From: Actinomadura luteofluorescens
Lineage (GTDB): Bacteria > Actinomycetota > Actinomycetes > Streptosporangiales > Streptosporangiaceae
Direction: 5' to 3'
DNA: 64,000 nt
Assembly (NCBI RefSeq): GCF_013409365.1
Contig: NZ_JACCBA010000001.1
Span: 4,836,001 to 4,900,000 of the forward strand
The translations under genes and the position numbers were made by a program. The notes under the pieces were generated by a model. The model did not search any database, was not told the origin of the DNA, and saw nothing but the letters and a program-made list of their open reading frames with translations. Each line of letters starts with the position of its first letter. The stretch's first letter is position 1. Below, one piece after another: positions 20,180 through 38,568 of the stretch.

Positions 20180-20197
20180 TGTCACGGGGATGACAAA
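20180..20197. promoter_or_regulatory. Palindromic operator TTGTCA-N6-TGACAA before the acyl-AMP ligase
   Basis: TTGTCA and TGACAA are separated by CGGGGA. The same palindrome with the same spacing lies before the PKS at 30511-30534. A possible -10 box, TAATAT, follows at 20226-20231. The start codon of the ligase is 194 bases downstream. Confidence 0.6.
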
Positions 20198-20390
20198 CCG
20201 TGCTTCGGCGAATGTGACCGGCAGCTAATATCGCGCACTGACTACCATCCGGTAGCTTTGTGATCATCGCCGGTCACCGGGGCGTCCAGGCAGAGTCGTC
20301 CGGCGGGCGCGGCGCGCCTGCGCCGGCGGAGTGCGACCCCTCACGCATCGTCCACGGCCCCGTCCGGCCCGTCCCCTCGGGAGATGATCA

Positions 20391-22187
20391 ATGGCATTGG
20401 GCTCGCTGCTTCCCGAACTCCTGCCCGGCGGCTCCGGCCGCACCCCGCTGATCGAGCGGGTCGCGCGGTGGGCGAGGGAGAAGCCGGACGCCCCGGCCTA
20501 CACCTTCGTCGACTACTCGGCCGACCCGTCCGGCGCGCACCTCACGCTGAGCTGGGCCGAGACCGACCGGCGGGCGCGCGCCATGGCGGTGACGCTTCGG
20601 CAGGTCACCGGGCCGGGGGAGCGCGCCGCGCTGCTGCTGCCGCAGACGCTCGAATACATGATGACCATGCTCGGCGCCCTGTACTCGCACGTCATCGCGG
20701 TCCCGCTGTTCTCGCCCGACCTGCCGGGGCACGCCGACCGGCTGATCGGCGCCTACACCGACGCCGAGCCCGCGGTGATCGTCACGACGCGGAACGCGCT
20801 GCCGCACGTGGAGAAGTTCCTCGCCGACCACGACGTCCCGCAGCCGAAGGAGATCGTGTTCGCCGAGGAGGTCGACCTGTCCCTGGCGGACCGCTGGCGC
20901 GACGAGACGGTCGCCTTCGACGACGTCGCCTACTTGCAGTACACGTCGGGATCGACGCGCCGTCCCGCCGGAGTGGAGATCACCCACGGGAACGTGACGG
21001 CGAACGCCGCGCAGCTGTGGGCCGGGTGGGCGCCCGAGAAGCCGGACCCCGAGCTGGTGAGCTGGCTGCCGCTGTTCCACGACATGGGGTTGATCGCGAC
21101 GATGGCGCTGCCGCTGGTGCGCGGCGACCACGCCATCTACACCGACCCCGTCTCGTTCATCATGAACCCGATGCGGTGGCTGCAGCTCATCGCGGGACGT
21201 CCCGGCAAGAACGTCTACACCGCCGGTCCGAACTTCGCCTACGAGTACGTCGCGTCCATGGCCGCGCCGGAGAAGATCGCCGATCTGGACCTGTCCGGCC
21301 TGACGACCTGCCTGAACGGCGCCGAGCCGATCCGCACCTCGACGCTGTCGACGTTCGCCGACGCGCTGGCGCCGGCCGGGCTGCGTCCGGGCGCGCAGGC
21401 GCCGGGCTACGGGCTGGCCGAGGCCACCGTGTTCGTCACGGCCGCCGCCGAGGACGTCCCACCGAGGATCATCTCGGTGGACCGTGAGGCGCTCACCCAG
21501 GGCGACCTGCGGCTCCGCGAGGACGGCGCCGAGGGGACGACCGCGCTGGTGTCGTGCGGACGCCCGTGCGGGCAGATCGTCGCGATCGTCGACCCCGAGG
21601 CCCGCGTCGAGCAGCCGGACGGGAGGGTCGGCGAGATCTGGGTCCACGGACCCAACACGGCACCCGGCTACTGGCGCAACTCCGAGCGGAGCCAGGAGAC
21701 GTTCGGCGGCGAGCTGCCCGAACCAGGGGACCTGCCGTCCGGGCCGTGGATGAAGACCGGCGACTACGGGGTCGTCCACGAGGGTGAGCTTTATGTGACC
21801 GGCCGTATCAAGGACCTCATCATCGTGGACGGCCGCAACCACTACCCGCAGGACATCGAGGTCACCGCGCAGGAGGCCCATCCGGCGGTCCGCCCCGACC
21901 ACGTGGCGGCGTTCGCGCTCACCGGGGAGGAGACCGAGCGGCTGGTGGTCGTCGCCGAGCGCAACCGCCGCGTCCCCCTCGGGCGGCTCGACGTCGACGA
22001 GGTGGAGTCGGCGGTCCGCGCGGCCGTCAACGTCGAGCACGAGATGAGCGTCCACGCGTTCGTATTGATCGAACCGGGTGGCGTGTCGCGCACCTCCAGC
22101 GGGAAGATCGCACGGGCCGCGACCCGGCAGCGCTACCTGGACGGCGACCTGGCGACGACCGCGGACCGCCTCGCGTCCCGCAGGTGA
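20391..22187 (+). CDS. Fatty acyl-AMP ligase (FAAL), FadD32-like
   Basis: 598 residues, the usual FAAL length. The ATP loop is YLQYTSGSTRRPAGVEITHG, then SWLPLFHDMGL, YGLAEATVFVTA and GRIKDLIIVDGRNHYPQDIE; the C-terminal lysine is in RTSSGKIARAA. FAALs differ from acyl-CoA ligases by passing the acyl-adenylate straight to an ACP. FadD32 does this for mycobacterial Pks13, and the PKS encoded at 30643 has a matching N-terminal ACP. It is the first gene of an operon with MmpL (62 bases apart), behind the shared palindrome. Confidence 0.92.
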   Translation: MALGSLLPELLPGGSGRTPLIERVARWAREKPDAPAYTFVDYSADPSGAHLTLSWAETDRRARAMAVTLRQVTGPGERAALLLPQTLEYMMTMLGALYSHVIAVPLFSPDLPGHADRLIGAYTDAEPAVIVTTRNALPHVEKFLADHDVPQPKEIVFAEEVDLSLADRWRDETVAFDDVAYLQYTSGSTRRPAGVEITHGNVTANAAQLWAGWAPEKPDPELVSWLPLFHDMGLIATMALPLVRGDHAIYTDPVSFIMNPMRWLQLIAGRPGKNVYTAGPNFAYEYVASMAAPEKIADLDLSGLTTCLNGAEPIRTSTLSTFADALAPAGLRPGAQAPGYGLAEATVFVTAAAEDVPPRIISVDREALTQGDLRLREDGAEGTTALVSCGRPCGQIVAIVDPEARVEQPDGRVGEIWVHGPNTAPGYWRNSERSQETFGGELPEPGDLPSGPWMKTGDYGVVHEGELYVTGRIKDLIIVDGRNHYPQDIEVTAQEAHPAVRPDHVAAFALTGEETERLVVVAERNRRVPLGRLDVDEVESAVRAAVNVEHEMSVHAFVLIEPGGVSRTSSGKIARAATRQRYLDGDLATTADRLASRR

Positions 22188-22248
22188 CGACGGAACCGGC
22201 CGTGCGGGGGCGAGGGAGCCTCCGGGCGGCCGTGGAAACAGGAGGAAC

Positions 22249-25074
22249 ATGCTTTCGGGGCTGGGGCGTCTCATCCACCGGCGGCGCTGGACCAGCCTCG
22301 TCCTGATCCTGATCATGACCGTGGTGGCGGGCGCCTGGGGGCTCGGCGTGTTCGCCAAGTTCAAGGAGGGCGGCTTCGAGGACCCCGACGCGTCCTCGAC
22401 GCTCGTCGCCAAGCTCGGCGCGACCTACTTCGGCAGCACCAACCCCGACGTCCTCGTGCTGTATTCGAGCGACACCATGACGGTGGACGACCCGCGCTTC
22501 GAGGCGAGCGTCGTCACCACCATCGCACGGCTGCCCAGGGCCCAGGTCGAGGAGATCATCTCCTACTGGTCGTTCAACGGCGAGGCCGCGCGCACGTTCG
22601 CCTCCCACGACCGGCACTCGACCTTCGTCGCGGTGAAGCTGAAGGGCGAGGAGGCAGCGGACAAGACGGAGAACTACCACGCCGTCAAGGACCGCATGGC
22701 CGCGCCAGGACTCGACGTCCGGTTCGGCGGCAGCGTCCCGCTGGGCGAGGAGTTCGGCAAGCAGGTCGTCGCCGACATCGTCCGCGCCGAGACCATCACC
22801 ATGCCGCCCCTGCTCATCCTGCTCGTCATCCTGTTCGGCGCCGTGGTGGCCTCGTCACTGCCCATCGTCGTGGCCGTCTTCTCGACGGTCGGGGGACTGG
22901 CCGTCCTGCACGTGGTGACGTACGCGGCCGACGTGACGTCCTTCGCGCTGGAAGTCGTCACGATGATGGGCGTCGGCCTCGCGATCGACTACTCGCTGTT
23001 CATCATCAGTCGTTTCCGTGAAGAACTTCAGCGCGGCATGGCCGCGCAAGGTCTGCCGCCAGGAAAACCCTGGAAGCGGGAGGACGGCAAGGTAGCGCGC
23101 AAAGCCGCCAAGAAAGCGCACAGGACGGCTCTCAAGCCCATACGCGAAGCCGCCCTGGCGGCCACCATGGCGACGGCGGGCCGCACCATCATGGTCAGCG
23201 GCATCACCGTCTCGTCGGCTCTCGCGGGCCTCCTGCTCTTCCCGCAGATGTTCCTCCGGACGATCGGGCTCGCCGGCATAGCCACCGTCATGGTCGCGGT
23301 GTTCGGAGCCACCGTTCTGCTGCCGACGCTCTTGGCCCTCCTCGGGCCACGTGTCGAAGGCGGGCAGATGTGGTGGCGGCGTCCCTCGTCCAAGCGCGCG
23401 CGGCGAGACCCCGAGAGCGGCTTCTGGTACCGGCTCGGCCACAGCGTGATGAAGCACCCGCTCCCATACTTCGCGGTCGTGCTCGTCATCCTGGGCGTGA
23501 TGTTCGTGCCGTTCCTGAACGTCCAGTTCGGCAGTGTGGACGCCCGGGTCCTTCCCAAGGACAGCCCCACCCGCGCCGTGGTGGAGACCATCAAGAAGGA
23601 CTTCCCCAACGGGTCCGTTGAGCCCATCGATGTGGTGGTGTCCGGAGACCTCATCCCGCGCGACTGGACGCCGTCCGGCAAGGGCGACCCCATCCCGCCC
23701 TACCTGGAGCAGTTCAGGAAGCAGCTCGGGTCGCTCCCCGGCGTCACCGAGGCCCAGTTCACCGGCTACTCCGGTTCGTACGGGGGCGTGCGCATCTCCG
23801 TCACGCACAAGTACGAGCCGATGGACCAGCACGCCCAGGACCTCGTCACCGAGATCCGCGGGATGAGCCTGTCCAAGGACGGCTACCCGATGCACATCGA
23901 CGTCGGCGGCAGCACCGCGTCCCAGATGGACCTGATGTCGAGCCTGATGAGATCCCTGCCGAAGATGGCGCTCGTCGTCGGGATCGCCACGTTCGTCCTG
24001 CTCTTCATGTTCTTCGGCTCGATCGTTCTGCCGCTGAAGGCCATCGTCATGAACGTCCTGTCGATCGGCGCCTCGTTCGGCGCGATCGTCTGGGGCTTCC
24101 AGTACGGGCACCTGGCCGGGCTGCTGAACTTCACCCCCACCGGCGGCGTCGAGGCCACCAGCATGATCCTCATCCTCGCGGTCGTGTTCGGCCTCTCCAT
24201 GGACTACGAGGTCTTCCTGCTGAGCCGCATTCGCGAGGAATGGGACCTCACGCACGACAACCGCGTCGCCGTCGCGTCCGGCATGCAGCACACGGGCGGC
24301 ATCATCACCAGCGCCGCGCTGCTCTTCCTCCTCGTCATCGCCGCGTTCAGCATGGCCGGGATCACCGTCGTGAAGCTGATCGGCGTCGGCATGTTCGTGG
24401 CCGTCGTCGTGGACGCCGCCCTCGTCCGCTCCCTCCTCGTCCCGGCCACGATGCGCTTCATGGGCTCGGCCAACTGGTGGCTGCCGGGCTTCCTCGCCGG
24501 CCTGCACGCCCGCATGGACCTGCGCGAACGCAGCACCCTCGCCCCGGCCGGCGCCACCGCGACCCCGCCCCGCCTGCCGGACGAGCAGCCCTTCCCCTAC
24601 GCCATCAACTGGGCGGAACCGACCCCGCCCCCCGCGGGCACCGTGCCGCCGGACGGGCACGTCCGCCCGGACGCCGCCGACCCGGCCGGGATGCGGGCCG
24701 CGCCGGAGCCGCTCACCCCTCAGGACCCCGAACCGTCCGGCACGCCCGTCGGCCCGGAGTGGCAGGACGCTCCTGCACGCAGGACGGCCAAGGTCGCCGG
24801 TGACGTGCCGCGCGCCCGCCATCGACCGGACGCGAACGCCGCGTTCCAGGCCGCCCCGCAGCCGAGCACGGGCGAGTCGCCGAAGCTCGTCTTCCAGACG
24901 GCTCCCGGCGGCGCGGGGTCTGGCGCGTCAAAGCCCCAGGGAGCGCCGTGGGCGCCGTGGGCGGACGGCCCGCCGCAGCCGAAGCCGCGCACCGCCCCGC
25001 GCACCAGGCGCGTGATCGTCGCCAATTCGGACGGCTCAGGCTGGCACTGGGGCGAGGAAGACGACACACCCTGA
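22249..25074 (+). CDS. MmpL-family RND lipid transporter
   Basis: 941 residues from an ATG preceded by AGGAGGAA. Two RND halves are clear, each with a membrane helix, a periplasmic loop and a block of five helices. The proton-relay Asp-Tyr pairs of MmpL3 are present in both halves: Asp247-Tyr248 (GLAIDYSLFIISRFRE) and Asp652-Tyr653 (GLSMDYEVFLLSRIRE). The last 150 residues are a Pro-rich cytoplasmic tail. MmpL proteins flip or export large acyl lipids such as trehalose monomycolate. Coupling to the ligase suggests this one exports the product of the PKS at 30643. Confidence 0.92.
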   Translation: MLSGLGRLIHRRRWTSLVLILIMTVVAGAWGLGVFAKFKEGGFEDPDASSTLVAKLGATYFGSTNPDVLVLYSSDTMTVDDPRFEASVVTTIARLPRAQVEEIISYWSFNGEAARTFASHDRHSTFVAVKLKGEEAADKTENYHAVKDRMAAPGLDVRFGGSVPLGEEFGKQVVADIVRAETITMPPLLILLVILFGAVVASSLPIVVAVFSTVGGLAVLHVVTYAADVTSFALEVVTMMGVGLAIDYSLFIISRFREELQRGMAAQGLPPGKPWKREDGKVARKAAKKAHRTALKPIREAALAATMATAGRTIMVSGITVSSALAGLLLFPQMFLRTIGLAGIATVMVAVFGATVLLPTLLALLGPRVEGGQMWWRRPSSKRARRDPESGFWYRLGHSVMKHPLPYFAVVLVILGVMFVPFLNVQFGSVDARVLPKDSPTRAVVETIKKDFPNGSVEPIDVVVSGDLIPRDWTPSGKGDPIPPYLEQFRKQLGSLPGVTEAQFTGYSGSYGGVRISVTHKYEPMDQHAQDLVTEIRGMSLSKDGYPMHIDVGGSTASQMDLMSSLMRSLPKMALVVGIATFVLLFMFFGSIVLPLKAIVMNVLSIGASFGAIVWGFQYGHLAGLLNFTPTGGVEATSMILILAVVFGLSMDYEVFLLSRIREEWDLTHDNRVAVASGMQHTGGIITSAALLFLLVIAAFSMAGITVVKLIGVGMFVAVVVDAALVRSLLVPATMRFMGSANWWLPGFLAGLHARMDLRERSTLAPAGATATPPRLPDEQPFPYAINWAEPTPPPAGTVPPDGHVRPDAADPAGMRAAPEPLTPQDPEPSGTPVGPEWQDAPARRTAKVAGDVPRARHRPDANAAFQAAPQPSTGESPKLVFQTAPGGAGSGASKPQGAPWAPWADGPPQPKPRTAPRTRRVIVANSDGSGWHWGEEDDTP

Positions 25075-25082
25075 CGCCCTGA

Positions 25083-25928
25083 TCAGGCGAGCTTGCCTTC
25101 GATCCAGCGGACGCCGAAGTCCACAACGTCGGACGCCTCGAACAGGTGACTCGCGGCAGCGCCGACCTGCCCTTCTCGCCCGAGTCCGGCGTGGAGCATG
25201 TCGCGGGCGATGGTCTCGAAGGGTTCCACTCCTTCGGGCACGACCGGGGTGTAGTCGAAGGCGCCGTTCTCAGAGTCGATGTCGTGAAAGCGCCGCCATA
25301 CGCGCTCGCCGTTCACGCTGATGGGTTGCTCGTAGGTGACGAACCGCTTCGCCGGCGCCTTGGCGAGCGCCTCAGCGTGGTGCAGGAGGGTGAGGGTGTC
25401 CAGGGGTGCGCCCAGCAACAGGACCCGACCGCCCATCGCGGTGAGACGGGCAAGGGGACTGCCGGGGCCGTGCGGGTCGTCCCAGGGGTGGTCGTCCATC
25501 AGCGCGTGGGCCGCCGGGCCGAGGGCGGCGAAACTCGCGTCCGGGTGGCGGCTGCGGACCGCGCCCGGCCATCGGCGCAGCGCCTCGGGCAGCCGTCCGT
25601 TGGCGTGGTCGGCCTCGCTGGTCCGGGGGTCATAGGCCGGATGCTCGGCACGCATGGCGGCCTGCCAGTCCGCCGGCCAGTCGGTGAAGTCGTACGGCAG
25701 GGCGTCGTTCCAGCCGCAGGTCACCATAAGAGTGCCCCTGTCGCCGACCGCGTCCCGCAGCGCATCGATGACCGTCTGAGAGCCACCCGCGACAAACCCC
25801 AGGGCCGACATCCGGGTGTGGAACATGACGATGTCGCCGTCAGCCAGCCCGAGCCGGGTCAGCGCCCGAACGAGCCCCCCGCGCGTGACCGGACCGCTGG
25901 AACGTCCAAGAAGTTCGCGCTCACCCAC
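25083..25928 (-). CDS. Aminoglycoside N(3)-acetyltransferase (AAC(3)) family protein
   Basis: 281 residues from a GTG at 25928. Family motifs are MFHTRMSALGFVAGG, LMVTCGWND, SRHPDASFAALG, and GGRVLLLGAPLDTLTLLHHAE with the catalytic His. The family acetylates the 3-amino group of aminoglycosides, but many chromosomal members act on unknown amines. No ribosome site is seen before the GTG. It is convergent with MmpL, eight bases away, and could equally acetylate an amino sugar on a lipid. Confidence 0.82.
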   Translation of the reverse strand: MGERELLGRSSGPVTRGGLVRALTRLGLADGDIVMFHTRMSALGFVAGGSQTVIDALRDAVGDRGTLMVTCGWNDALPYDFTDWPADWQAAMRAEHPAYDPRTSEADHANGRLPEALRRWPGAVRSRHPDASFAALGPAAHALMDDHPWDDPHGPGSPLARLTAMGGRVLLLGAPLDTLTLLHHAEALAKAPAKRFVTYEQPISVNGERVWRRFHDIDSENGAFDYTPVVPEGVEPFETIARDMLHAGLGREGQVGAAASHLFEASDVVDFGVRWIEGKLA

Positions 25929-26145: not shown

Positions 26146-27375
26146 TCAAAGGAGCGAGTCGATGATCTCTTGTGCCCGTCCGACGCCGTCCTCGTCCCGA
26201 ATGCGCTGCCCCAGCACACTCGCCTGGTCGGCCATCCCCTGATCCCGGACCGCACGCCGGATCTTCTTGGCGAGCCGCGGCACGGTCATCGCGCGGAATG
26301 GCAGGGGGGCGGGCCCCGCCCCCAACGCCGCGACGCGTTCGCCCCAGTACGGCTGGTCGCCGAAGAACGGGCACACCACGGTGGGCACCCCTGCCCGAAG
26401 CCCCGCCGCCGTCGTGCCGGCGCCACCGTGGTGCACGACCGCCGCCATGCGCGGGAACAGCCATGAGTGCGGCACGTCCCGAACGGCGAAGACGTCCTCG
26501 TCCGATGTCGCCGGGTCGCCCTGCACGATCCCTCGGACCCCGGCGAGCTTCAGGGCCGCACACACGGCCATCCCGGTCATCTCGGCGTCTTTGGGCACCA
26601 TGCTCCCGAACCCGACGTACACCGGCGCGGGCCCCGCCGCCAGGAACTCCGCGAGCTCCCCGGGCGGCTCCCATTCGGGCTCGTCGAGGAACCAGTAGCC
26701 CGTCAGGTTCACGTTGGAGGCCCAGTCCTTGGGGCGCGGAACCACCACCGGACTGAAGCACGCCAGCACCGGGCCGCCGTCGGCCCGCCGGCCTCGCAGC
26801 GGCAGCCGCGGCAAGCCCAGCGTCTCGTCCCGCCACGGGTTGATGAACGGGCGCGAAAGCTGCCACGCGATCTGATCGACCGCGTGGAAGGTCGCCCGGT
26901 TCGCCCATGGCCCGAGCACGCGCGCCTGCGGGACGAACGGGTGCGGGAACGCCCCGGTCGGCTCGCTCGGCTGGAAATGGATCAACGCCCACGGAACACC
27001 GAGATGTTCGCCCAGATGCCGAGGAAGGAAACCCAGTGTGGGGCCCAAGATCAGGTCCGCGCCTTTACAGGCGTCCGAACACTCCGCCAGCAGCCGCTCG
27101 GCCATCGGCCCGAGGATCCGCCGGAAGCCGCCGAGGAACTTCACCGGATTACGCCCGCCGGCCAGCAACTCCTGCCCGGCGTCCGATTCGAGAATCTCCA
27201 TCGGATCAGCCGTCAGGGGCGCCAGCTCCAGCCCCGCCGCGACGACCATCGGCGAGTACCGTGCACTCGCCACCAGCCGCACGTCGTCCCCCCGCGCCCG
27301 CAGCGCGCGTCCCAGCGCCACGCAGGGCTGGATGTCCCCCCGCGACCCCGCCGCGAAGATCACGATCCGGCTCAC
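26146..27375 (-). CDS. GT1 (MGT/Gtf-type) glycosyltransferase
   Basis: 409 residues from a GTG with TAGGAGGT before it. The N-terminal half has IVIFAAGSRGDIQPCVALGRAL. The C-terminal nucleotide-sugar site is VVHHGGAGTTAAGLRAGVPTVV followed by FFGDQPYWGERV. These enzymes glycosylate lipids, polyketides or sterols from UDP- or TDP-sugars. Its start lies eight bases after the stop of the MFS gene, whose end overlaps its Shine-Dalgarno, so the two form an operon. Neighbourhood suggests it glycosylates the product of the lipid locus; that is inference. Confidence 0.88.
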   Translation of the reverse strand: MSRIVIFAAGSRGDIQPCVALGRALRARGDDVRLVASARYSPMVVAAGLELAPLTADPMEILESDAGQELLAGGRNPVKFLGGFRRILGPMAERLLAECSDACKGADLILGPTLGFLPRHLGEHLGVPWALIHFQPSEPTGAFPHPFVPQARVLGPWANRATFHAVDQIAWQLSRPFINPWRDETLGLPRLPLRGRRADGGPVLACFSPVVVPRPKDWASNVNLTGYWFLDEPEWEPPGELAEFLAAGPAPVYVGFGSMVPKDAEMTGMAVCAALKLAGVRGIVQGDPATSDEDVFAVRDVPHSWLFPRMAAVVHHGGAGTTAAGLRAGVPTVVCPFFGDQPYWGERVAALGAGPAPLPFRAMTVPRLAKKIRRAVRDQGMADQASVLGQRIRDEDGVGRAQEIIDSLL

Positions 27376-27383: not shown

Positions 27384-30374
27384 CTACCAGGCATCACTAC
27401 GCGGGACGATGTGCGGCTTCTCCGCCGGCTCCTCTTCGGGCACATAAGGCTCGTACCACCCCTCAGGCGGCGCGGGCCGCCCGCCGCTCCCGCCATCGGC
27501 TTCGCCGGCCCCCGCCGACCCACCGTCCACCAACGACTCCGCGCCCCCGTCCCCGCCCTCTGAACCGCCTCCGAGCAGCCCGTCGCCCATCTCTGGCGAG
27601 GTAGCCTCCGGAAGACCAATCGACCGCCCGCCCGGCGCCGCCTTCGCCCCCTCGGCAGGCCGCGTGGTGGCTACGCCTGCGTTGGCCTCTGGCCCGTCGA
27701 GCCACTGCGCACCGCTTTCGCCGAGATCGGCACGCTCGCCAGGTTCTGCTGGGTGTCCGTACCGGGGAGCGGTCGGGTGTTCGTCACTGGGGGCGGCCGT
27801 GCTCCCGCTCGTGGGTTGTCCGGTGCTTTCGGCGGCGGCTCCGGAATTGCCGCTGAATGGAGCCCTGCCGCCCTCGGTGGGTGTCGTTGGCTGCTCGTCC
27901 AGTGGCGTCTTGACGTCTTCGGCCGGCCGTGTGGCGGCGACGCCTGCGGTGGTCTGCGGGTTGCTGTCGAGCCGGTGCTCGCTGCTAGCGCCGGGGTCGG
28001 TGAGTTCACCGGGTGCCGCTGGGTGCCTGTGGCCAGGGGCGGTCGTGGTCTCGGTCGGGAGTTTTTCGGTGCTTCCGGCGGTGGTTCCCGAGTTGTTGGT
28101 GAGGGGGGACTTGATGCCTTCGGTGGGCTGCCCGGGGGCGGCCTGTTGGCCGGGGTCTTTCTTGGGCTGTCTGGTGGCGCGTTCGAGATGTGGGGAGGTG
28201 GGCTTGTGTTCTTGTTCGGCGGCGCTGGGGCGGGGCGCTGAGCCGTTGCCGAGCGGACGGTCTTCGGGGGCGCCAGTGCCGGGTGTGATTTCGCGCGGAG
28301 GTGCCCATTCGTGGCCTGGGGAGTCGGAGGCTTCTGCGGTTTCGCTTGCGTCGCGCGGGCCCGGGCTGTGCAGGGGTTCTGCTTGACCGCAGGGAGCCGT
28401 GAGGTTTCCCGGGGGCTCGTTCAAGGGTGGGGCGGCGCTGCCAGACGGCTTGGGGGTTGGGGGGTGCGGCAGGTTCCGCTGCGGGGGTGGGGCGGGGGGA
28501 GTGTTTGGGGGGAGGCTGAGCGGCGGTGGGGTGGGGGGTGTGTTCGAGGGGGGTTTGTTGGCTGGGGGTGGGGTGGGGGTGGCGGTGGGCGGTGGCTCCG
28601 CGGCGGTGGGCGGTGGCTCCGCGGCGGTGGGCGGTGGCTCCGTGGGGGTGGTGGGGGGTGGGTCTGTGGGGGTGGGCCAGTCTTTCCAGGGGTTGGGGGT
28701 GGGTGGGGGTGGAGGCCAGGGGGTTTCGGTCGTCCAGGTGTAGGTGTCGTCGTGGGGCTTCGGGGGAGTGTCGGTCCACCAGTGGGGGCCCGGGGTGGGT
28801 TCGGGCATGGGGTCTTCCTCCCAGGTGAGGGGGAGTGGGAGGGGCTCGCCCGGCGGAGTGGCGACGGCGATCGGGGCGGTCAGGGCGGGGACGGGGTCGC
28901 GAGGAGGTTCTGCGGGGCGGCGGGGGGTGGGTTCGACGAGGGGCGAGGACTTGCCGTGCTTGGGGCCCAGCCATCCCCGGCGGCTGGGGAGGGTGAGGCC
29001 GCTGATCAGGCCGCCGATGAGGACGAGGACGGCGCCGAGGATGAGGCCGGAGGCGGTGCCGCTGCGGAACGTCTCCAGTTCGGCGGCGCTCGCGCCCTCG
29101 TCGGGGACGTGGTGGATGAGCAGGCCCACGATGGCGATGCCGAAGGCGCCCGAGGCCTCGCGGATGACGTTGATGATGCCGCTCGCGACGCCCGCCTGCT
29201 GCTCCGGGACGGCCTTCAGGACGTACATGACGAGCGGCATGCCCATCGCGGCGCCCACGCCGACGATCATGACGCCGGGCATGAGGTCGGCGTAGCCGTC
29301 GCCCTGCTGGATGGTGGAGAACAGGAACATGCCGAAGGCCATGAGGGCGAGGCCGCCGCCGATCGCGGGGCGGGGGCCGAGCTTGGCGGCCAGCCAGAAC
29401 GCGACGGGCGTCATGACCATGATGGCGATGGACGGCGGCAGCATCACCAGGCCCGCCTGGGGCGGGGAGAAGCCGAGGAAGCGCTGCAGGAACGTCGCCG
29501 AATAGAAGATCATCCCGTTGAATCCGATGCCGTAGAGCATCTGGGAGAGCAGGCCGCCGGCGAAGACCCGGTTGCGGAAGAACCGCAAATTGATCATTGG
29601 GTCGGGGGCCCAGCTCTCCACCAGGATGAAGCAGGCCAGGGCGATGAACGCGAGCGCGAACACGCTGAGGACGGACGGGTCGGCCCAGCCGTGCTTGTTC
29701 CCCGACTCCAGCCCGTAGGTGAAGGCGAACAGCATCGTGGCGGAGATGAGGACGCCGGGCAGGTCGACGCGGGCGTCGCGGTTCTCGCCCTTGCCGGTGA
29801 GGACGACGAGGCCGAGCAGGATGACGAGGATGCCGGGGACGATGTTGATCAGGAAGATCCAGCCCCAGCTCCACTGCTGGACGATGAAGCCGCCGATGGT
29901 GGGGCCGAGGGCGGTGGCGCTGGAGCCGGCGCCGACCCAGACGATCGTGCCGAGGGAGCGCTGCTTGTCGGTGCGGCCGACGGTGACCATGACCTGCGTG
30001 GCGGGGAGGGCCAGGGCGGCGCCGGCGCCCTGCGCGACGCGGGCGAGGATGAGGGTCGCCGAGTCGGGGGCGAGGCCGCAGACGGCGGACGCGGCGGTGA
30101 AGACGACCATCCCGGACACGAAGGTCACGCGGCAGCCGAAGACGTCGGTGAGCCGCCCGCCCGCCACCATCAGGCAGGAGAACATCAGGATGTAGCCGGT
30201 GGCGACCCAGTCCTTGGCCGAGTTGGACATGTCGAGGTCGCTCATGATGGTGGGCAGCGCGTTCGCGACCACCGTGTTGTCCATGGTGATCATGAATGCG
30301 CTGACGGCCACCACCGCCAGCGCCCATCGGTATCGGCCGCGGGTCAACAGTCCGTACGGCGTGAACTTCCGCAC
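27384..30374 (-). CDS. DHA2-type MFS transporter with a 530-residue Pro-rich tail
   Basis: 996 residues from a GTG. Residues 1-465 are a 14-helix EmrB/QacA-type drug:proton antiporter (MITMDNTVVANALPTI, GGRLTDVFGCR, ARVAQGAGAALALPATQ, ALGPTIGGFIVQQWSWGWIF). The other half is a low-complexity cytoplasmic tail rich in Pro, Thr, Glu and Gly. It holds three heptapeptide PPTAAEP copies and a degenerate 75-residue duplication (blocks beginning NSGTTAGST and NSGAAAEST). Family members are about 480-520 residues, so the tail is exceptional. It is divergent from the PKS and probably exports a related metabolite or confers tolerance. Confidence 0.85.
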   Translation of the reverse strand: MRKFTPYGLLTRGRYRWALAVVAVSAFMITMDNTVVANALPTIMSDLDMSNSAKDWVATGYILMFSCLMVAGGRLTDVFGCRVTFVSGMVVFTAASAVCGLAPDSATLILARVAQGAGAALALPATQVMVTVGRTDKQRSLGTIVWVGAGSSATALGPTIGGFIVQQWSWGWIFLINIVPGILVILLGLVVLTGKGENRDARVDLPGVLISATMLFAFTYGLESGNKHGWADPSVLSVFALAFIALACFILVESWAPDPMINLRFFRNRVFAGGLLSQMLYGIGFNGMIFYSATFLQRFLGFSPPQAGLVMLPPSIAIMVMTPVAFWLAAKLGPRPAIGGGLALMAFGMFLFSTIQQGDGYADLMPGVMIVGVGAAMGMPLVMYVLKAVPEQQAGVASGIINVIREASGAFGIAIVGLLIHHVPDEGASAAELETFRSGTASGLILGAVLVLIGGLISGLTLPSRRGWLGPKHGKSSPLVEPTPRRPAEPPRDPVPALTAPIAVATPPGEPLPLPLTWEEDPMPEPTPGPHWWTDTPPKPHDDTYTWTTETPWPPPPPTPNPWKDWPTPTDPPPTTPTEPPPTAAEPPPTAAEPPPTATPTPPPANKPPSNTPPTPPPLSLPPNTPPAPPPQRNLPHPPTPKPSGSAAPPLNEPPGNLTAPCGQAEPLHSPGPRDASETAEASDSPGHEWAPPREITPGTGAPEDRPLGNGSAPRPSAAEQEHKPTSPHLERATRQPKKDPGQQAAPGQPTEGIKSPLTNNSGTTAGSTEKLPTETTTAPGHRHPAAPGELTDPGASSEHRLDSNPQTTAGVAATRPAEDVKTPLDEQPTTPTEGGRAPFSGNSGAAAESTGQPTSGSTAAPSDEHPTAPRYGHPAEPGERADLGESGAQWLDGPEANAGVATTRPAEGAKAAPGGRSIGLPEATSPEMGDGLLGGGSEGGDGGAESLVDGGSAGAGEADGGSGGRPAPPEGWYEPYVPEEEPAEKPHIVPRSDAW
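28580..28642 (-). repeat. 21-bp tandem repeat in the MFS tail
   Basis: Three near-perfect copies of a 21-base unit containing GGCGGTGGCTCCGC on the plus strand. They encode PPTAAEP heptapeptides on the minus strand. The repeat is in frame. Confidence 0.75.
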
Positions 30375-30421: not shown

Positions 30422-30504
30422 GTTACTATTGGTTGGCGCTTCGTTACTCGGCCCTGACTCCAGGCCGTGGTACCACAACTATCCCATCAGGCCACATTGG
30501 TTAC
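30422..30504. promoter_or_regulatory. GTTACT direct repeats in the MFS-PKS divergent promoter
   Basis: GTTACT occurs at 30422, 30443 and 30499; the first two are 21 bases apart (two helical turns). The surrounding 60 bases are the AT-richest part of the locus and probably hold promoters for the MFS gene. Confidence 0.35.
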
Positions 30505-30510
30505 TGCTGA

Positions 30511-30534
30511 GTCTTGTCATCGCCGTGACAAGAC
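30511..30534. promoter_or_regulatory. Palindromic operator TTGTCA-N6-TGACAA before the PKS
   Basis: A perfect 9-bp inverted repeat, GTCTTGTCA with TGACAAGAC, around TCGCCG. The core equals the site at 20180. It lies 109 bases before the PKS start and 137 bases before the divergent MFS start, so one regulator could control both. Confidence 0.65.
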
Positions 30535-30642
30535 GAGAGGGAGAAAAGTGGCCTGGGTGCGCATCGTGAGTCGGTCATCGTAAGACAAAGTGGTCCCTCC
30601 GCTTCGACGAACGATCCCGGTTTCATGGGGGGACCCCACCGC

Positions 30643-33600
30643 ATGCAGAGCAACGATCGTTCCGGAGCCGCGCGGGAGAACGCGCAGGACGAGACACGGA
30701 TCAGCGAGGATTCGGTCCGCCGGCACTTGATCGAGCAGATCGCGCGCCGCTCCAGGACCACCGCCGCCGAAGTCGACCCCGACCGGCCGCTGGAGGAGTT
30801 CGGTCTGGCCTCCAGGGACGCGGTCGCGATCGCGGGCGAACTCGAGCAGATGCTCGGGCGGGCCCTCCCCGCCACCCTCGTCTGGGAACACCCGACGATC
30901 AACAAGCTCTCCGTCGCGCTGGCAGGCGGGACCCCCGAGGACGCCCCGGCGCCGGAGCCGGTCGTGACGCGGGCCGCGAGCGACGAGCCGATCGCCGTCG
31001 TCGGCGCCGGCCTGCGCTTCCCCGGCGGCGGCCGCGACCTGACCGGCCCGGACGACTACTGGCGCTTCCTGACCGGGCGCGGCGACGCGATCCGCGAGGT
31101 GCCGGACGGCCGGTGGGACCCGTTCGACGACGGCTCCCCCGAGGTCGGCGACCTGCTCGGCAACACGACACGGCTCGGCGGCTTCCTGCAGGACGTCGCC
31201 GAGTTCGACGCGGCGTTCTTCGGCATCACCCCGCGCGAGGCCGCGGTGATGGACCCGCAGCAGCGGCTCGTCCTCGAAGTGGCGTGGGAGGCGTTCGAGC
31301 ACGCGGGCATCGGCCCGGCGTCGCTGCGCGGCAGCCGCACGGGCGTCTTCGTCGGCGTGTCCGCGCCGGAGTACGCCGCGTTCACGGCGTCCGACCCGGC
31401 GTCTCTCGAACCGTTCACGGCGACGGGCGCGGCGCTCAGCATCATCGCGGGCCGGCTGTCGTACCTGCTCGACCTGCGCGGCCCCAGCATGATCGTCGAC
31501 ACCGCGTGCTCGTCGTCGCTGGTCTCGGCGCATCTCGCCGTGCGGGCGCTGCGCGACGGCGAGGCCGACGTGGCGCTGGCCGGGGGCGTGAACCTGCTGC
31601 TGTCGCCGACCGTCACGATGACGTTCGACCTTGCCGACGCGACGGCGGCGGACGGGCACTGCAAGGCGTTCGACGCCTCCGCCGACGGCATGGTCCGCGC
31701 GGAGGGCTGCGGCGCCGTCGTCCTGAAGCGGCTGTCGGACGCGGAGCGGGACGGCGACCGGATCCTCGCCGTGATCCGCGGCTCCGGCGTCAACTCCGAC
31801 GGGCGCTCGAACGGCCTCGTCGCCCCGAACTCCGACGCGCAGCGCGCCCTGCTGCGGGACGTGTACGCGAGCGCGGGCATCGACACGCGGGAGGTCGACT
31901 ACGTCGAGGCCCACGGGACGGGGACGTTCCTGGGCGACCCCATCGAGGCCAAGGCGGTCGGCGAGGTCCTCGGCGCGGGCCGCGACCTGGACGAGCCGCT
32001 GCTGATCGGGTCCGCGAAGTCCAATCTCGGGCACATGGAGTCCGCGGCGGGGATCGCGGGCCTCATCAAGACGGCCCTGGCGCTGCACCACCGGGTCATC
32101 CCGCCGAGCGCGCACTACAAGGAGCCCAACCCGCATATCCCGTTCGACGAGCTGCGCCTTGCGGTCGTCGCGGAGGAGACGCCGTGGCCTGACAGGGGAC
32201 GTCCAGCACGGGCGGGCGTGTCCGGATTCGGCTTCGGCGGAACGAACGCGCACGTCATCTTGGAAGAGGCGCCCGCGCAGGAGGCGACCGTCCATCCGGC
32301 CGTCGTCAGGACGTTCCCACTGTCCGACACCAGCGACGACCGCATTCGCGACCATGCGGCCCTCCTGGCTGGGTGGCTCCCGAACCAGGACGTGAAACTC
32401 GCCGACGTCGCTCGCACCCTGCACCGGCGCGCCGGACGTGGACGGGCCCGCGCGGCCGTCGCCGCCAGGGACCGCGCAGGGCTGGTCGAAGGGCTGACCG
32501 CTCTCGCCGAGGGCCGTCCCCACCCGGGCGTGGTGACGGGTACGGCGCTCGGGGCGCCCGGCCGTCCCGTGTGGGTGTTCTCGGGGTACGGGGCGCAGCG
32601 CGCGGGCATGGCGCAGCGGCTCCTGGAGGAGGAGCCCGCGTTCGCCGAGGCCATCGACGACCTGGACGGCCTGTTCGCCGAGGAGGGCGGCCCCGACCTG
32701 TGGGCTCTCCTCGAAGAGGGGCGCAAGCCGGACGGCCCGGCCGACACGATGCCGGTGCTGTTCGCGGTCCAGATCGCCCTCGCCCGCATGTGGCGTGCGT
32801 ACGGCGTCACGCCCGGCGCGGTGGTCGGCCATTCGATGGGCGAGGTCGCGGCGGCCGTCGTCGCGGGCGCGCTCACCGTGGAGGACGGCGTCCGCGTCAT
32901 CTGCCGCCGGTCCCGCCTGCTGACGCGGCTCGTCGGCGGCGGCGCGATGGCGGTTCTCGGCGCGTCCGCCGCGGAGGTCGCGCGCCTCGGCGAGGGCCTG
33001 CCCGAGGTGTACGCGGCCGTGCACTCCTCGCCGAAGCAGACCGTGGTGACCGGCGACGCCGGCCAGGTCGCGGAGATCGTGGAGCGGGCCGAGGCGGAGG
33101 GCCGGCTCGCCCGGATGGTGCAGGCCGAGGGCGCCGGTCACTCGCCCCAGGTCGACCCGCTCGTTCCCGAGCTGCGCGAACTCCTCGCCGACGTGGGCGC
33201 CGAGCGGGGCGCCCCGCTCGCCGAGGGCATCAGGCTCTACACGACCGCCCTGGACGACCCCCGCGCCTACCTCGACTCCGCGGCCGCCCTCGGCGTCGAC
33301 CACTGGGCGGCGAACCTGCGGAACGCGGTGCGGCTCACGGACGCGGTCGCCGCCGCCTCCGAGGACGGGTTCCGGACGTTCGTCGAGGTCAACGCGCACC
33401 CGATCCTGGCGCACGCGGTCGGCGAGACCCTGGAGGGGACGGGCGCGCTCGTCACCCACACGCTCAAGCGGGCGCCGAAGGGCCAGGAGACCGACGACAC
33501 GCTGACGTTCCACGCGCAGCTCGCCACCCTGTCCGCGCACGGCCACGTGATCGGCAGGCCTGTGGACGGGCGGATCGTCGACGTCCCGCAGTCGCCGTGG

Positions 33601-36600
33601 CGGCACCAACGGCACTGGGTCGACCTGTCGGCGCGCAGATCGGCCCGGAGCGACGAGCATCCGCTGCTCGGTGCGCATGTGGAGCTTCCGGGCGAAGACC
33701 GGCACGCCTGGCGCGCGGACGTGGGGCTCGCCGCGCAGCCGTGGCTGGGCGCGATGGCCGTCCACGGCCTGCCCGCCCTGCCGGTCGCGGCGTTCGCGGA
33801 GATGGCGCTCGCCGCCGGGGCGGCCGCGCTCGGCGTCGAGGACGTCCGTGTCAACAGCCTGTGGATGGAGCGGCCGCTCGCGCTCGCCGACCATACGACC
33901 GTGACGACGACGTTCACCGAGGCGGAGCAGCGGGTGGAGATCCACGCCCTGACCCCGGCGGGCACGTGGGCGCGGCTGGCCAGCGCGGACGTCGGCGAGG
34001 ACCACCGTCCGCCCGCCGCGGCCGGGCCGGGCGCGGCCACCGAGGTCACCGCCGCCGAGCGCGGCAGCCGCCACTACCGGCTGCATCCCGAGGTCTTCGA
34101 CCGCTGCCTGTCCGTCCTGTCGGACGAGGCGGCGGGCGGCGACGGCGGCGCGTGGCGGGCCGAGACGATCGGCAGCCTCCGCGTGTTCGGGCCGACGCAT
34201 CGCGGCGGGCACGTCCAGGCGAAGATCGTCCGGGACGGGGAGCACGTGACGGGCTCGGTCGCGCTGCTGGCGGCGGACGGCCGGGTCCTCGCAGAGGCGA
34301 CCGGCATCGTGCTGCGCCGGGTCGAGCGCCACGACGTCCCCGTCCCGCTCGCCGACAAGCTCGTCGAACTCGTCTGGGACGAGACGCCCCTACCCGAGCG
34401 CGCCGAACCGTCCGAAGGCGGCACCTGGCTGGTGCTGGCCGAGGTGGACGACGCGCTGGGCAACGCGACGGCCGCCGGGCTGGAGGAGCGCGGGAAGCGC
34501 GTCATCCGGCACCGGCCGACGAACCGGCCGCCGGACGACCATCCGGCCATGGCCGAGCCGGTCGAAGGCGTCGTGCTCGTCCCGTCCGCCGATCTCGTGG
34601 ACGAAGAACTCGTCCTGGCCGTCGCAGGGGTGAGCCGTTCGCTGCCCGACGGCCCCCGCCTTTTCGTCGCGACCCGCTCTGCCCTGCCCCTGGCGGGCGA
34701 AGGCGTGCCCGGCCACGGGTTCGTCAGCGCGCTCACCAGGGTTCTGGCGTTCGAACGCACCGTCCAGCGCGCCACCCATGTGGACGTCGACCGTCCGGCG
34801 GATCTCGTCACGGAACTCCTAGCGGGCGACGACGCGCGGGAGGTCACCTGGCGCGCCGGCACCCGGCAGGTGGCGCGCCTCGCGCAGACCGTCCTGCCGG
34901 AGACGCCGGCCAAGAAGAAGCGCGTCGTCCGGCGCGGCGGCGCGTACGTCATCACCGGCGGTTACGGCGGGATCGGCCTGGTCACCGCGCGGCTGCTGGC
35001 CGAGCGGGGCGCCGGGCGCATCGTCCTGTCCGGGCGCGGCGGGCCCGACGCCGACGCCGAGAAGGTGATCGCCCGCCTCCGCGAGGACGGCGTGGACGTC
35101 GGGGTCGTGCTCGGTGACATCGCCCGGCCCGGTACGGCGGAACGCCTGGTCAGGGTCGCCCAGGAGGGCGGGACCAGGCTGTGCGGCGTGGTGCACGGCG
35201 CCGGGGCGATCGACGACCGGCTGATCGCCGACCTCGGCCCGGACGATCTCCACAGGGTGTGGACGGCGAAGGTCGAGGGCGCGCGGCGGCTCAGCGAGGC
35301 CACCTGGGACCTCGACCTCGACTGGCTCGTCACGCACTCCTCGGCCGCCGCGCTGCTCGGCTCGCCGGGGCAGGCCGCCTACGCCGCCGCGAACGCCGCG
35401 ATCGACGCGCTCATGGCGTACCGGCGCGCGAACGGGCGCCCCGGGACCACCATCAACTGGGGCACGTGGTCGCGGGTCGGCGGGGCCGCCGAGACGACGG
35501 TCACCGTGATCGACCCGATCAGCCCGGCGGAGGGCGCGGAGGCGCTGGAGGCGCTCCTCGTGCACGGCAGGGCGGCGACGGGCGTGCTGCGCTTCGACCC
35601 CGCCACCGCGGTCGGGCTGTTCCCCGAGATCCGGAACATGCCGTACTTCGCCGCGCTGACGGCGGCGGCCGACGAGCTCGGCACGGGCGACGCCGGTGAC
35701 TGGCCCGGCGTCGAGGCGCTCAAGGACCTCGACCCGGCCACCGCCCGCAAGTTGATCGCCACGCAGGTCAGGCACCGGATCGCGGCCGTGCTCGGCTTCG
35801 ACCCGCAGCGCCTGGACCCGGCCGTCCCGCTGACCGACCTCGGCCTGGACTCCCTCGTCGCGGTCCGGATCAAGAGCGGCGTCGAGCACGACCTCGGGCT
35901 GACCGTCCCGGCGTCGGTGCTGCTCCAGGGCGCCAGCGTGAACGTGTTCGAGGAGTGGGCGGCCGGTGAGCTCGGCCTGGCCGGCGCCCCCGCCCCCGCT
36001 CCCGCGGCGGTGTCGAACGCCGAGTCCGGGTACGTCATGCCGCGCGACGCCGCCGAGCGCCTCGCCGTCCGCATCTTCGAGGACGTCCTCGGCCTCGACC
36101 GCGTCGGCGTCACCGCCGACTTCTTCGCCGACCTCGGCGGGCAGGACCACCATGCCGACCAGGTCGTCGCGATCGTCGCGAGGGAGCTCGGGGGCGAGGT
36201 CACCCGCGGGGAGTTGTTCGAGACGCCGACCGCGCAGAACGTTGCCGAGTACCTCAGGGCGGCCGACGAGGAGGCGGCGCGGCAGATCGTCCGCCCGCTG
36301 AAGGGGCGCGCGGGGTCGTCCCCCCGCGATGACCGGCCCGCCGGCGACCGGCGGCCGATCTTCATCGCGCATCCGGCGGGCGGCACCACGGCCTGCTACC
36401 GCCAGCTCGTCGACCTCCTCGGCGACGACCAGCCGGTGTACGGGCTGGAGCGGTTCGAGGACGCGCCCCCGGTCGAGGAGCGCGCCGCCCGCTACGTCCG
36501 CGAACTGCTGGAGGCGCAGCCGGAGGGCGCGTTCCGGCTCGGCGGCTGGTCGTTCGGCGGCGTCCTCGCCTACGAGACGGCCCGGCAGCTGAAGGCGGCG

Positions 36601-37152
36601 GGACGCGAGGTCGAGTTCGTCGCGCTGTTCGACGCGGGCCTTCCCCTGGCCGTGGACGACGAGTCCGACACGCTCGCCCGCCGCTTCTCCGCGTTCGCCG
36701 ACTACATCAACGAGACCTACGGCCTGGAGGTCGCCCTCACCTACGAGGAGCTGTCCGGGCTGGACGAGGAGTCGCAGTTCGCGCTGGTCATGGAGCGTGC
36801 GGCGCCGCTGGTCGACCACATCCCCCCTGCGGCGCTCACCCACCAGCTCACGTCCCACCAGGACACCCGTTCCCTGGAGGCGTACAACCCGGAGCCCTAC
36901 GACGGGCACGTCATCCTCTACTACGCGCCCGAGGAGACCCCCTGGGCCGTGCGGGATGCGCGCTATGTGCTCGACGGGACCAACGGTTTCGGCGGGCTCT
37001 GCGCCGACCTGGAGATCGTCACGATCCCCGGTGCGCACCATCTCAACCTGCTCGATCCGCCCGGTGTGGGCCTGCTCGCCGCGCACCTGGAGGCCCGGCT
37101 CGCGGGACGGCGGGAGAGCGACGCCGTCCCCATGCCGATCACGGCCCGCTGA
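30643..37152 (+). CDS. Pks13-like type I polyketide synthase: ACP-KS-AT-DH(dead)-KR-ACP-ACP(dead)-TE
   Basis: 2169 residues from the ATG at 30643 (GGGGGACC before it; an ATG at 30625 also exists). N-terminal ACP: Ser57 in FGLASRDAV, as in Pks13. KS: Cys289 (DTACSSS), His424, His464. AT: Ser731 (GHSMGEVA). DH-like: Met1038 replaces the catalytic His (WLGAMAVHG), and Ser1157 replaces Gln/His after Asp1153. KR: GGYGGIG, Ser1567, Tyr1580, Asn1584, with an IDD motif suggesting a B-type. ACP: Ser1737 (LGLDS). Second ACP: Asp1835 replaces the attachment Ser (LGGQDHHAD). TE: Ser1970 (GWSFGG), Asp1997, His2132 or His2133. Predicted job: one condensation of a FAAL-loaded acyl chain with an alkylmalonyl unit, ketoreduction and release. 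No enoylreductase is present. Confidence 0.92.
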
Positions 37153-37192
37153 GGGCCGCCCCCCCGAACCCCGTTCCACGGAGGACACCCCC

Positions 37193-38527
37193 ATGGCCCA
37201 GTCCGGCCCGTCCCACGCCCTGCTCGACGCCGTCCGGTCCGGCGCGAGCGGTCCCGAGCTGCAGGAGATCGACCTGCCGACCCGCTTCCGCGCGGCGTTC
37301 ACCCGCAAGGACGAGGTCGGGATCTTCGAGGGCCAGACCGACAAGGACGTGCGCCGCTCCCTGCACGTCGGCGAGGTCGAGATGCCCGAGCTCGCGCCCG
37401 ACGAGTGCGTCGTCGCGGTGATGTCCGCCGCGATCAACTTCAACACCGTCTGGTCGGCGATCTTCGAGCCGGTCCCGACGTTCGCGTTCCTGGAGAAGTT
37501 CGGCCGGCAGGGCTGGTACGGCGCCCGGCACGACCTGCCGTACCACATCCTCGGCTCGGACGGCTCGGGCGTCGTCGTGCGCACCGGCAGCGGCGTGAAG
37601 AGCTGGAAGGTCGGCGACAAGGTCGTGCTGTCCCCGTCCTACGTGGACGAGGAGGACCACGGCTCCTACGACGACGGCATGATGTCGGAGAGCCAGCTCG
37701 CGTGGGGATTCGAGACGAACTTCGGGTCGCTCGGCGAGTACTGCATCGTCAAGGCCAACCAGCTGATCCGCAAGCCCGCCCACCTGACCTGGGAGGAGGC
37801 CGGGTCGAACACGCTCTGCGCCGCGACCGCCTACCGGATGCTCGTCGGGTCCCACGGCGCCCGCATGAAGCAGGGCGACGTGGTGCTGATCTGGGGCGCG
37901 ACCGGCGGGCTCGGCTCGTTCGCCACGCAGCTCGTCAAGAACGGAGGTGGCATCCCGGTCGCCGTGGTCTCCTCCGAGGAGAAGGCGGAGATCGTCCGGT
38001 CGCAGGGCTGCGAGCACATCATCAACCGCAACGACCTGGAACTCGGCGAGCAGGGCCTGCGGCACCCGAAGGCGGGCAGGATGCTGGGCGAGGCGATCCG
38101 CCGGCTCGTCGGCGAGGACCCCGGCATCGTGTTCGAGTACCTCGGCCGCGAGACGTTCGGGGCGTCCGTCTACGTCGCCAAGCGCGGCGGCAAGATCGTC
38201 ACGTGCGGTTCCTCCACCGGGTACCGGCACGAGTACGACAACCGGTTCCTGTGGATGCGGCTGAAGAGCATCATCGGCTCGCACGGCTTCAACTACCACG
38301 AGGCCGTCGAGATCAACCGGCTGATCGGGCTCGGCATGATCCACCCGACGCTGTCGACGGTCTTCCCGCTGGACGAGGCCGGGGACGCGACCCGCGCCGT
38401 CCAGACGAACCAGCACATCGGCAAGGTCGCGGTCCTGTGCGGCGCCACCGGCGAGGGCCAGGGCGTCGACGACCCGGCGCTGCGGGAGCGCATCGGCGAG
38501 GAGAAGCTCAACCTCTACCGCCGCTGA
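37193..38527 (+). CDS. Crotonyl-CoA carboxylase/reductase (CCR)
   Basis: 444 residues from an ATG behind GGAGGACA. It is a medium-chain dehydrogenase-like reductase with FNTVWSAIFEP, the Rossmann loop IWGATGGLGSFATQL and GKVAVLCGATG. The CO2-binding set known from CCR structures is present: Asn84, Phe173-Glu174 (WGFETNFG) and His364 (IGSHGFNY). The enzyme reductively carboxylates enoyl-CoAs to ethyl- or longer alkylmalonyl-CoA extenders. After His364 the sequence is Gly-Phe-Asn-Tyr; the ethylmalonyl enzymes I remember have Phe-Ala-Asn-Tyr, so the acyl pocket may differ. It starts 40 bases after the PKS and is surely cotranscribed. Confidence 0.93.
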   Translation: MAQSGPSHALLDAVRSGASGPELQEIDLPTRFRAAFTRKDEVGIFEGQTDKDVRRSLHVGEVEMPELAPDECVVAVMSAAINFNTVWSAIFEPVPTFAFLEKFGRQGWYGARHDLPYHILGSDGSGVVVRTGSGVKSWKVGDKVVLSPSYVDEEDHGSYDDGMMSESQLAWGFETNFGSLGEYCIVKANQLIRKPAHLTWEEAGSNTLCAATAYRMLVGSHGARMKQGDVVLIWGATGGLGSFATQLVKNGGGIPVAVVSSEEKAEIVRSQGCEHIINRNDLELGEQGLRHPKAGRMLGEAIRRLVGEDPGIVFEYLGRETFGASVYVAKRGGKIVTCGSSTGYRHEYDNRFLWMRLKSIIGSHGFNYHEAVEINRLIGLGMIHPTLSTVFPLDEAGDATRAVQTNQHIGKVAVLCGATGEGQGVDDPALRERIGEEKLNLYRR

Positions 38528-38538
38528 GGCGTGCCTGC

Positions 38539-38568
38539 GGGACGGGCCCGGAGCGCGGGGCCCGTCCC
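38539..38568 (+). terminator. Intrinsic terminator of the PKS-CCR operon
   Basis: The 11-bp stem GGGACGGGCCC pairs with GGGCCCGTCCC around eight bases and is followed by TTTCTTCT. It begins 11 bases after the CCR stop and closes the lipid locus. Confidence 0.88.

Follow-up and report, generated by a model that had tools for sequence, protein, structure and literature searches.

Gene content of the locus

This report concerns a gene cluster in Actinomadura luteofluorescens that is predicted to make a lipid. It lies in a window (the whole stretch of DNA that was analyzed, 64,000 nucleotides) comprising bases 4836001-4900000 of a single-contig 9.62-Mb genome. Genes for a FadD32-like fatty acyl-AMP ligase (FAAL) and an MmpL3-like transporter run together on the + strand, those for a glycosyltransferase (GT) and a transporter of the major facilitator superfamily (MFS) lie on the - strand, and a polyketide synthase (PKS) gene is followed, again on the + strand, by a gene for a crotonyl-CoA carboxylase/reductase (CCR) (Table 1). 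An initial annotation of this DNA had described the FAAL, an MmpL protein with both Asp-Tyr relays, a PKS with an N-terminal acyl carrier protein (ACP) domain, and the CCR, and all four were found in their places. On the data presented below, the FAAL and PKS gene groups are likely to carry out one mycolate-type condensation that yields a 2-alkyl-3-hydroxy fatty acyl lipid, which they would likely also export; a single regulator probably controls both groups.

The ligase has an AMP-binding domain and its best matches are FAALs, which places it in this class; its best solved match is FadD32 (443.5 bits). MmpL3 is the best solved match of the transporter (318.1 bits), in which both Asp-Tyr pairs (D247-Y248 and D652-Y653) are kept. 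A second FAAL, 55% identical, is encoded elsewhere in the genome (G000:C1:6804030-6805739).

Table 1. Features of the cluster, with positions counted from the first base of the window (KS, ketosynthase; AT, acyltransferase; DH, dehydratase; KR, ketoreductase; TE, thioesterase)
Feature	Position	Strand	Basis
Palindrome TTGTCACGGGGATGACAA, likely operator of FAAL-MmpL	20179-20196	.	
FadD32-like FAAL, 598 aa	20391-22187	+	PF00501 + PF23024; best PDB match FadD32
MmpL3-like RND transporter, ~941 aa, proline-rich C-terminus	about 22249-25074	+	PF03176; PDB MmpL3
AAC(3)-type aminoglycoside acetyltransferase	25083-25928	-	AAC_3 394.6 bits (cut-off 270)
GT (GT28 N-terminal / EryCIII-like)	26146-27375	-	best solved match sterol 3-beta-glucosyltransferase; cluster-conserved
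DHA2 (EmrB-type) MFS transporter, long proline-rich tail	27384-30374	-	TIGR00711 251.9 bits (cut-off 230.2); cluster-conserved
Palindrome TTGTCATCGCCGTGACAA, likely operator of PKS-CCR	30514-30531	.	
PKS ACP-KS-AT-dead DH-KR-ACP-dead ACP-TE, 2175 aa	30625-37152	+	
N-terminal ACP (GLASRDA), Ser63	30706-30939	+	Ser 41/41 rows; aligned to Pks13 ACP
KS, Cys295/His430/His470	30976-32268	+	invariant 41/41 rows
AT, GAGHS motif	32563-33489	+	GAGH and Ser invariant 41/41 rows
Degenerate DH, Met1044 at catalytic His position	33655-34374	+	no His in 41/41 rows
KR, Ser1573/Tyr1586/Asn1590	34939-35472	+	invariant 41/41 rows
In-line ACP, Ser1743	35749-35955	+	Ser 41/41 rows
Degenerate third ACP, Asp1841 at serine position	36052-36264	+	matching region in eight Pks13s
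TE, Ser1976/Asp2003/His2138	36352-37104	+	Ser, Asp 41/41; His 39/41
CCR	37193-38527	+	TIGR01751 516.7 bits (cut-off 378.55), scanned inside longer open frame

Architecture of the condensing enzyme

The PKS had initially been read as ACP-KS-AT-DH-KR-ACP-TE. This order holds, with the KR inside the enzyme, and two amendments are needed: the catalytic His of the DH is lost, and an extra ACP without its serine precedes the TE. Active sites were compared in 41 rows, i.e., the window and 40 full-span loci of the genus (L092 was dropped for its broken frame, and the partial PKSs of L070, L076, L086 and L090 were left out). The DH histidine column of these rows contains Leu (13), Ala (12), Thr (8), Val (4), Ile (2), Met (1) and Arg (1), and the serine column of the third ACP contains Asp (24), Glu (16) and Ala (1). 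The TE His is not seen in two rows, L082 and L089, in which the frame diverges or terminates early. An active DH in the window PKS was rejected, as its catalytic His is lost. With the KR kept and this His lost, the chain is expected to be keto-reduced and not dehydrated, which fits a 3-hydroxy product, and the presence of one live in-line ACP beside the loading ACP would fit a single condensation.

It could be argued that a single KS-AT-KR set is reused in an iterative manner, yielding a longer polyhydroxy chain, and in several source records relatives indeed bear the name of PpsD, the phthiocerol synthase. This is very unlikely, however, in view of the one live in-line ACP next to the loading ACP and of the grouping of the KS (see below) with that of Pks13, a single-condensation enzyme.

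Among 27 further PKSs, the Actinocorallia-type rows P0098-P0102 have a gap at the DH histidine column. Three others, of similar length and from Longimycelium and Amycolatopsis (P0276, P0279 and P0283), have the DH His and carry the AT motifs YASH, VAGH and VAAH; these are possible outgroup forms.

Relationship to Pks13

The top family for the PKS was NCBIfam Pks13. Its identity to Rhodococcus ruber Pks13 was 47% in the first ACP, 56% in the KS, 39% in the AT and 36% in the TE, whereas three other PKSs showed 50-52% in the KS, 44-47% in the AT and no comparable TE match. In a KS tree of 34 rows, 19 PKSs of the window type and eight Pks13s were separated from seven other PKSs with a support of 100/97; the outgroups in this tree are few, and its Pks13 rows represent Rhodococcus and near kin, with no Mycobacterium or Corynebacterium. 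Moreover, the interval between ACP and TE, which holds the dead ACP here, aligns with eight Pks13s and has a motif in common with them. The KS clade and the shared motif point to common descent, and the earlier notion that a mycolate-like pathway had been rebuilt from separate parts is therefore probably wrong. Instead, the sequences suggest that the PKS is a reducing relative of Pks13. It does not match the Pks13 domain order, ACP-KS-AT-ACP-TE without reductive domains, since a DH remnant and a KR are present; these domains would have been either gained here or lost in Pks13.

In the R. ruber locus (L152), the gene order is fadD32, pks13, carboxylase. An acyl-CoA carboxylase beta gene was not found beside the PKS, the rest of the genome not having been searched for one; both in the window and in relatives the CCR gene is located there.

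The carboxylase/reductase and the extender unit

The CCR is the only one in the genome above the family cut-off, the next match scoring 77 bits. Its best solved match was the 2-octenoyl-CoA carboxylase/reductase of PDB 4a0s, which we take to be CinF (557.4 bits, versus 485.7 bits for the best crotonyl-CoA enzyme). Ala170 and Gly365 (positions counted in the alignment) align to Ala163 and Gly362 of the octenoyl-CoA enzyme, and the crotonyl-CoA enzymes 6na4, 6owe and 6na3 have Ile and Phe at these two positions, which reportedly size the substrate pocket (as Quade et al. are said to have described in 2012). Ala and Gly were found in 42/42 rows of the genus, window included, and in 19/19 near-complete CCRs from 21 loci beyond it.

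With regard to the AT, an excerpt of one study proposes AGHS as a hexylmalonyl-CoA AT motif on the basis of three ATs (PMC10888640), and an excerpt of a second reports VPGH in a different AT for branched units (PMC3943440). The motif GAGHT occurs in 14 of the 120 Pks13-type proteins listed (GASHT in the other 106), so that AGHS alone does not fix the chain length. From the CCR and AT residues, we predict a 2-alkyl branch longer than methyl.

Alternatively, the CCR may provide ethylmalonyl-CoA or work in general metabolism, with methylmalonyl- or ethylmalonyl-CoA as the unit used by the AT, leaving a branch that is just methyl or ethyl. That this is the sole CCR above the cut-off and that the KS-AT region also resembles mycocerosic acid synthase would agree with such a role. 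We consider it unlikely, because the octenoyl-type pocket residues are present in 61/61 rows, the AT motif is GAGHS and not YASH, and the CCR gene is directly downstream of the PKS gene in relatives.

A palindrome shared by the two gene groups

An operator-like element common to both groups, noted in the initial annotation, was recovered as TTGTCA-N6-TGACAA. The 9.62-Mb genome contains five perfect copies, two of which are in the cluster, one before each group. When the window was shuffled and two mismatches were allowed, 8/100 shuffles gave at least two matches, whereas both real sites are mismatch-free; what gives the palindrome its weight is thus its count in the genome and its conservation. 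It was present, with no fewer than 11 of the 12 fixed bases, upstream of the PKS gene in 44/44 rows (43 perfect), these rows being the 45 loci of the genus minus L086, where the PKS start is missing. Upstream of the FAAL gene it was present in 47/49 rows (46 perfect), the exceptions being L043 and L046; the 49 rows include the window itself (L018), and L058, L062, L066 and L088, lacking upstream sequence, were left out. The two sets share genomes, and their rows are partly non-independent. Plain shuffling of the window's two upstream stretches, 200 times each, gave at best 10 and 9 of the 12 bases.

After removal of identical contexts, 90 distinct perfect sites remained, 88 with a spacer of the form Y-N4-R. 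The remaining three perfect palindromes of the A. luteofluorescens genome (L009, L010 and L011) have a different type of spacer and were rejected as members of the same regulon, since they do not fit Y-N4-R. Outside the genus, a site with 11 or more of the 12 bases was present in 16/21 loci, the exceptions being L131, L140, L142, L150 and L151. In three genomes (G003, G010 and G016), the gene groups are ~52-58 kb apart and each has a perfect site, although these cases are not shown to be independent events. Many columns flanking the PKS palindrome (30424-30571) show at least 90% conservation across 36 loci selected from the 44, and perhaps represent promoter elements.

These data indicate that both gene groups are probably under one shared regulator. 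If they were instead unrelated neighbors that share a palindrome by chance, for which only the shuffles of the window itself could be cited, neither the conservation across rows, nor the retention of the site in groups tens of kilobases apart, nor the co-occurrence of FAAL and PKS described below would be expected; we regard such a coincidence as extremely improbable.

Occurrence in related genomes

Relatives were gathered with two queries, the FAAL and the DH-KR stretch of the PKS. In one set of 48 loci, 45 came from Actinomadura or Spirillospora. The DH-KR stretch matched 85/345 genomes of the order (E 1e-15). Of the 65 genomes listed from the same genus, 59 had a match, none with an E above 2e-114. 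Co-occurrence of FAAL and PKS, which the initial annotation had put forward as a test, was borne out: when 36 same-genus genomes were searched for both, 32 had the two together and four (G007, G025, G028 and G035) had neither (Fisher p 1.7e-5, uncorrected for shared ancestry and with partial FAAL matches in G023 and G034). In a class-wide draw, 34/394 genomes matched the DH-KR stretch, with a best E of 4.6e-38 once two Actinomadura and two genus-g84 genomes are set aside. Most of the remaining matches are probably other PKSs; a true member, G119, scores just 6.4e-30, and distant members may therefore hide among them.

The complete set of FAAL, MmpL, GT, MFS, PKS and CCR was found together in many Actinomadura loci and also in Thermomonospora and Actinocorallia; the proposed FAAL-MmpL-PKS-CCR neighborhood is thus a conserved one. 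Loci of Halostreptopolyspora and Lipingzhangella keep FAAL, MmpL, MFS, PKS and CCR. Two loci from other genomes of the family (L140 and L142) have the FAAL-PKS-CCR arrangement with no MmpL match, and in L142 a PS1-like gene adjoins the FAAL. In L093 and L094 (Streptomyces sp. NBRC 110611 and a gammaproteobacterial metagenome-assembled genome), a FAAL lies beside a distantly related PKS.

In agreement with the initial annotation, the host does not belong to the known producers of mycolates: an excerpt of one report gives mycolic acids as not found in the genus Actinomadura and as absent in A. graeca (PMC8631618). The stretch assigned to A. graeca (G006) carries FAAL, MmpL, GT, MFS, PKS and CCR.

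Esterase and other neighboring genes

In 18 of the 37 loci with MmpL in view (9/24 in the genus and 9/13 elsewhere), a PF00756 esterase gene is located downstream of MmpL on the same strand, and three Actinocorallia loci carry two copies. The best solved matches of the esterase were Protein PS1 (121 bits), Cmt1 (66 bits) and Ag85C (57 bits); PS1 and Cmt1 are corynebacterial mycoloyltransferases. Its N-terminus, judged by eye, resembles a signal peptide. The A. luteofluorescens genome has six esterase matches elsewhere, the best 56% and the weakest 31% identical. The esterase connects the pathway genes with acyl transfer at the cell surface, with the caveat that the PF00756 family is broad.

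In the window, the AAC(3) gene occupies the spot where many relatives have the PS1-like gene. It was rejected as a pathway member, as it had no match in the other loci compared, some of which do not reach that spot. The tail of the MFS protein comprises ~500 proline-rich, hydrophilic residues; GC skew peaked in the profile at bases 28001-30000 (0.283).

Conservation of the GT and MFS genes raises the alternative that the product is a secreted bioactive glycolipid and not an envelope lipid, i.e., a 2-alkyl-3-hydroxy acid with a sugar added by the GT at the 3-OH, released or cyclized by the TE and exported by MFS and MmpL. A precedent would be glucolypsin, for which an excerpt describes a C2 methyl and a C3 hydroxyl on glucose-linked acyl chains (PMC4365757). 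Occurrence in 59/65 same-genus genomes is unusual for a niche metabolite, however, and both the PS1/Ag85-like gene in about half of the loci and the lack of a GT match in two Nocardiopsaceae loci argue for another role, which leaves this alternative rather less probable than an envelope lipid.

Proposed pathway and its standing

In the pathway that we favor, with its 2-alkyl-3-hydroxy acyl product, the FAAL would activate a fatty acid and transfer it to the N-terminal ACP. Reductive carboxylation of a medium- or long-chain 2-enoyl-CoA by the CCR would give alkylmalonyl-CoA, so that the CCR would take the role of the acyl-CoA carboxylase that R. ruber encodes behind pks13. The AT would load this alkylmalonyl unit, the KS would condense the two chains once, and the built-in KR would reduce the keto group. 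The hydroxyl would be left in place by the DH, which should not remove it because its catalytic His is missing, a loss seen directly in the sequence. The TE would then release or transfer the acyl chain, the GT would probably add a sugar, and MmpL, perhaps together with the MFS protein, would export the lipid. Outside the membrane, the acyl group would then be transferred, in many relatives, by a PS1/Ag85-like esterase for which secretion is predicted.

A number of observations weigh against this pathway. The lipid is a prediction from genes, the single condensation is read from architecture only, and the shared regulator is proposed from the palindrome. All three mycolate-type proteins score far under the curated NCBIfam cut-offs (570.2 versus 975 bits for FadD32, 392.1 versus 1400 for MmpL3 and 1277.9 versus 2100 for Pks13); the AT is closer to the three other PKSs than to R. 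ruber Pks13; the branch that separates the 19 PKSs from Pks13 has a support of 89/80 only; and AntE, presumably another long-chain CCR, matches the CCR at just ~235 bits. The DH column contains His in 5/27 further PKSs (P0116, P0243, P0276, P0279 and P0283), of which P0243 is badly aligned. The cluster is also incomplete in places: the PS1/Ag85-like gene is absent from the window at this site, a GT match from the Halostreptopolyspora and Lipingzhangella loci (both Nocardiopsaceae), the FAAL palindrome from the A. graeca stretch (the PKS palindrome being present), and both palindromes as well as a GT match from the stretch examined in G011. L078 has no MmpL-body match between FAAL and GT (2699-5560) and L059 has no MFS-body match (7552-10001); in each case only tail fragments are seen and the sequence is N-free. 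Finally, PF04602 arabinosyltransferases had no match in the A. luteofluorescens genome, C. glutamicum being the only positive among 14 control genomes, and no arabinogalactan acceptor is thus apparent.

The initially proposed 2-alkyl-3-hydroxy product agrees with the dead DH, the intact KR, the single live in-line ACP and the CCR and AT residues, while substrate, product, chain lengths, sugar, export and regulation remain inferred. Overall, the original observation was confirmed and its interpretation is partly supported. Literature searches aimed at the cluster turned up no description of it in the titles and abstract openings of the top-listed open-licence papers.

The envelope of the Mycobacteriales is defined by its mycolic acids, and Pks13, FadD32 and MmpL3 all serve as drug targets. 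As a tentative extension, Streptosporangiales may possess an outer-lipid system that parallels the mycolate system and is its sister. A reducing Pks13 relative, fed by a long-chain CCR, would make short hydroxylated "mycolates" in it, to be exported by MmpL and attached at the surface by PS1/Ag85-like enzymes; the system would have been missed so far because standard tests seek mycolic acids. The usual mycolate test could overlook a product that is shorter than the classical ones. If true, a sister pathway would be present in 59/65 sampled genomes of a genus that reportedly lacks mycolates and includes mycetoma agents, offering a living comparison for the origin of the mycomembrane, a new class of lipid to search for, and an enzyme in which condensation and reduction are naturally fused.

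Comparison with known systems

Mycocerosic acid synthase (PDB 9d2y and 5bp1) is similar to the window PKS in KS-AT and KR, but its alignment begins at the KS, with no N-terminal ACP, and the window PKS has a dead DH and no matched ER (enoylreductase) domain. The 2-octenoyl-CoA carboxylase/reductase 4a0s shares Ala and Gly at the two pocket positions, whereas the CCR described here adjoins a Pks13-like condensing enzyme and its substrate is a prediction from sequence. Acyl glycosides of the glucolypsin type, as presented in the excerpt cited above (PMC4365757), resemble the predicted product in combining a 2-branched 3-hydroxy acyl chain with a sugar; the branch there is methyl, and the likeness concerns the predicted product.

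A further close counterpart is the mycolate system (FadD32-Pks13-carboxylase, MmpL3 and Ag85/PS1). In mycolate makers, keto reduction is the job of a separate reductase, CmrA. The window PKS, in contrast, has its KR inside together with a dead DH, GT and MFS genes are added, the CCR gene stands directly behind the PKS gene in the place of the R. ruber carboxylase, and the host has no PF04602 match and belongs to a genus reported to be mycolate-free. Common to both systems are the FadD32-type FAAL, the MmpL3-like transporter, the N-terminal loading ACP, the KS clade, the C-terminal ACP with the degenerate carrier-like region and the TE and, in 18/37 loci of relatives, the PS1/Ag85-like gene beside MmpL.

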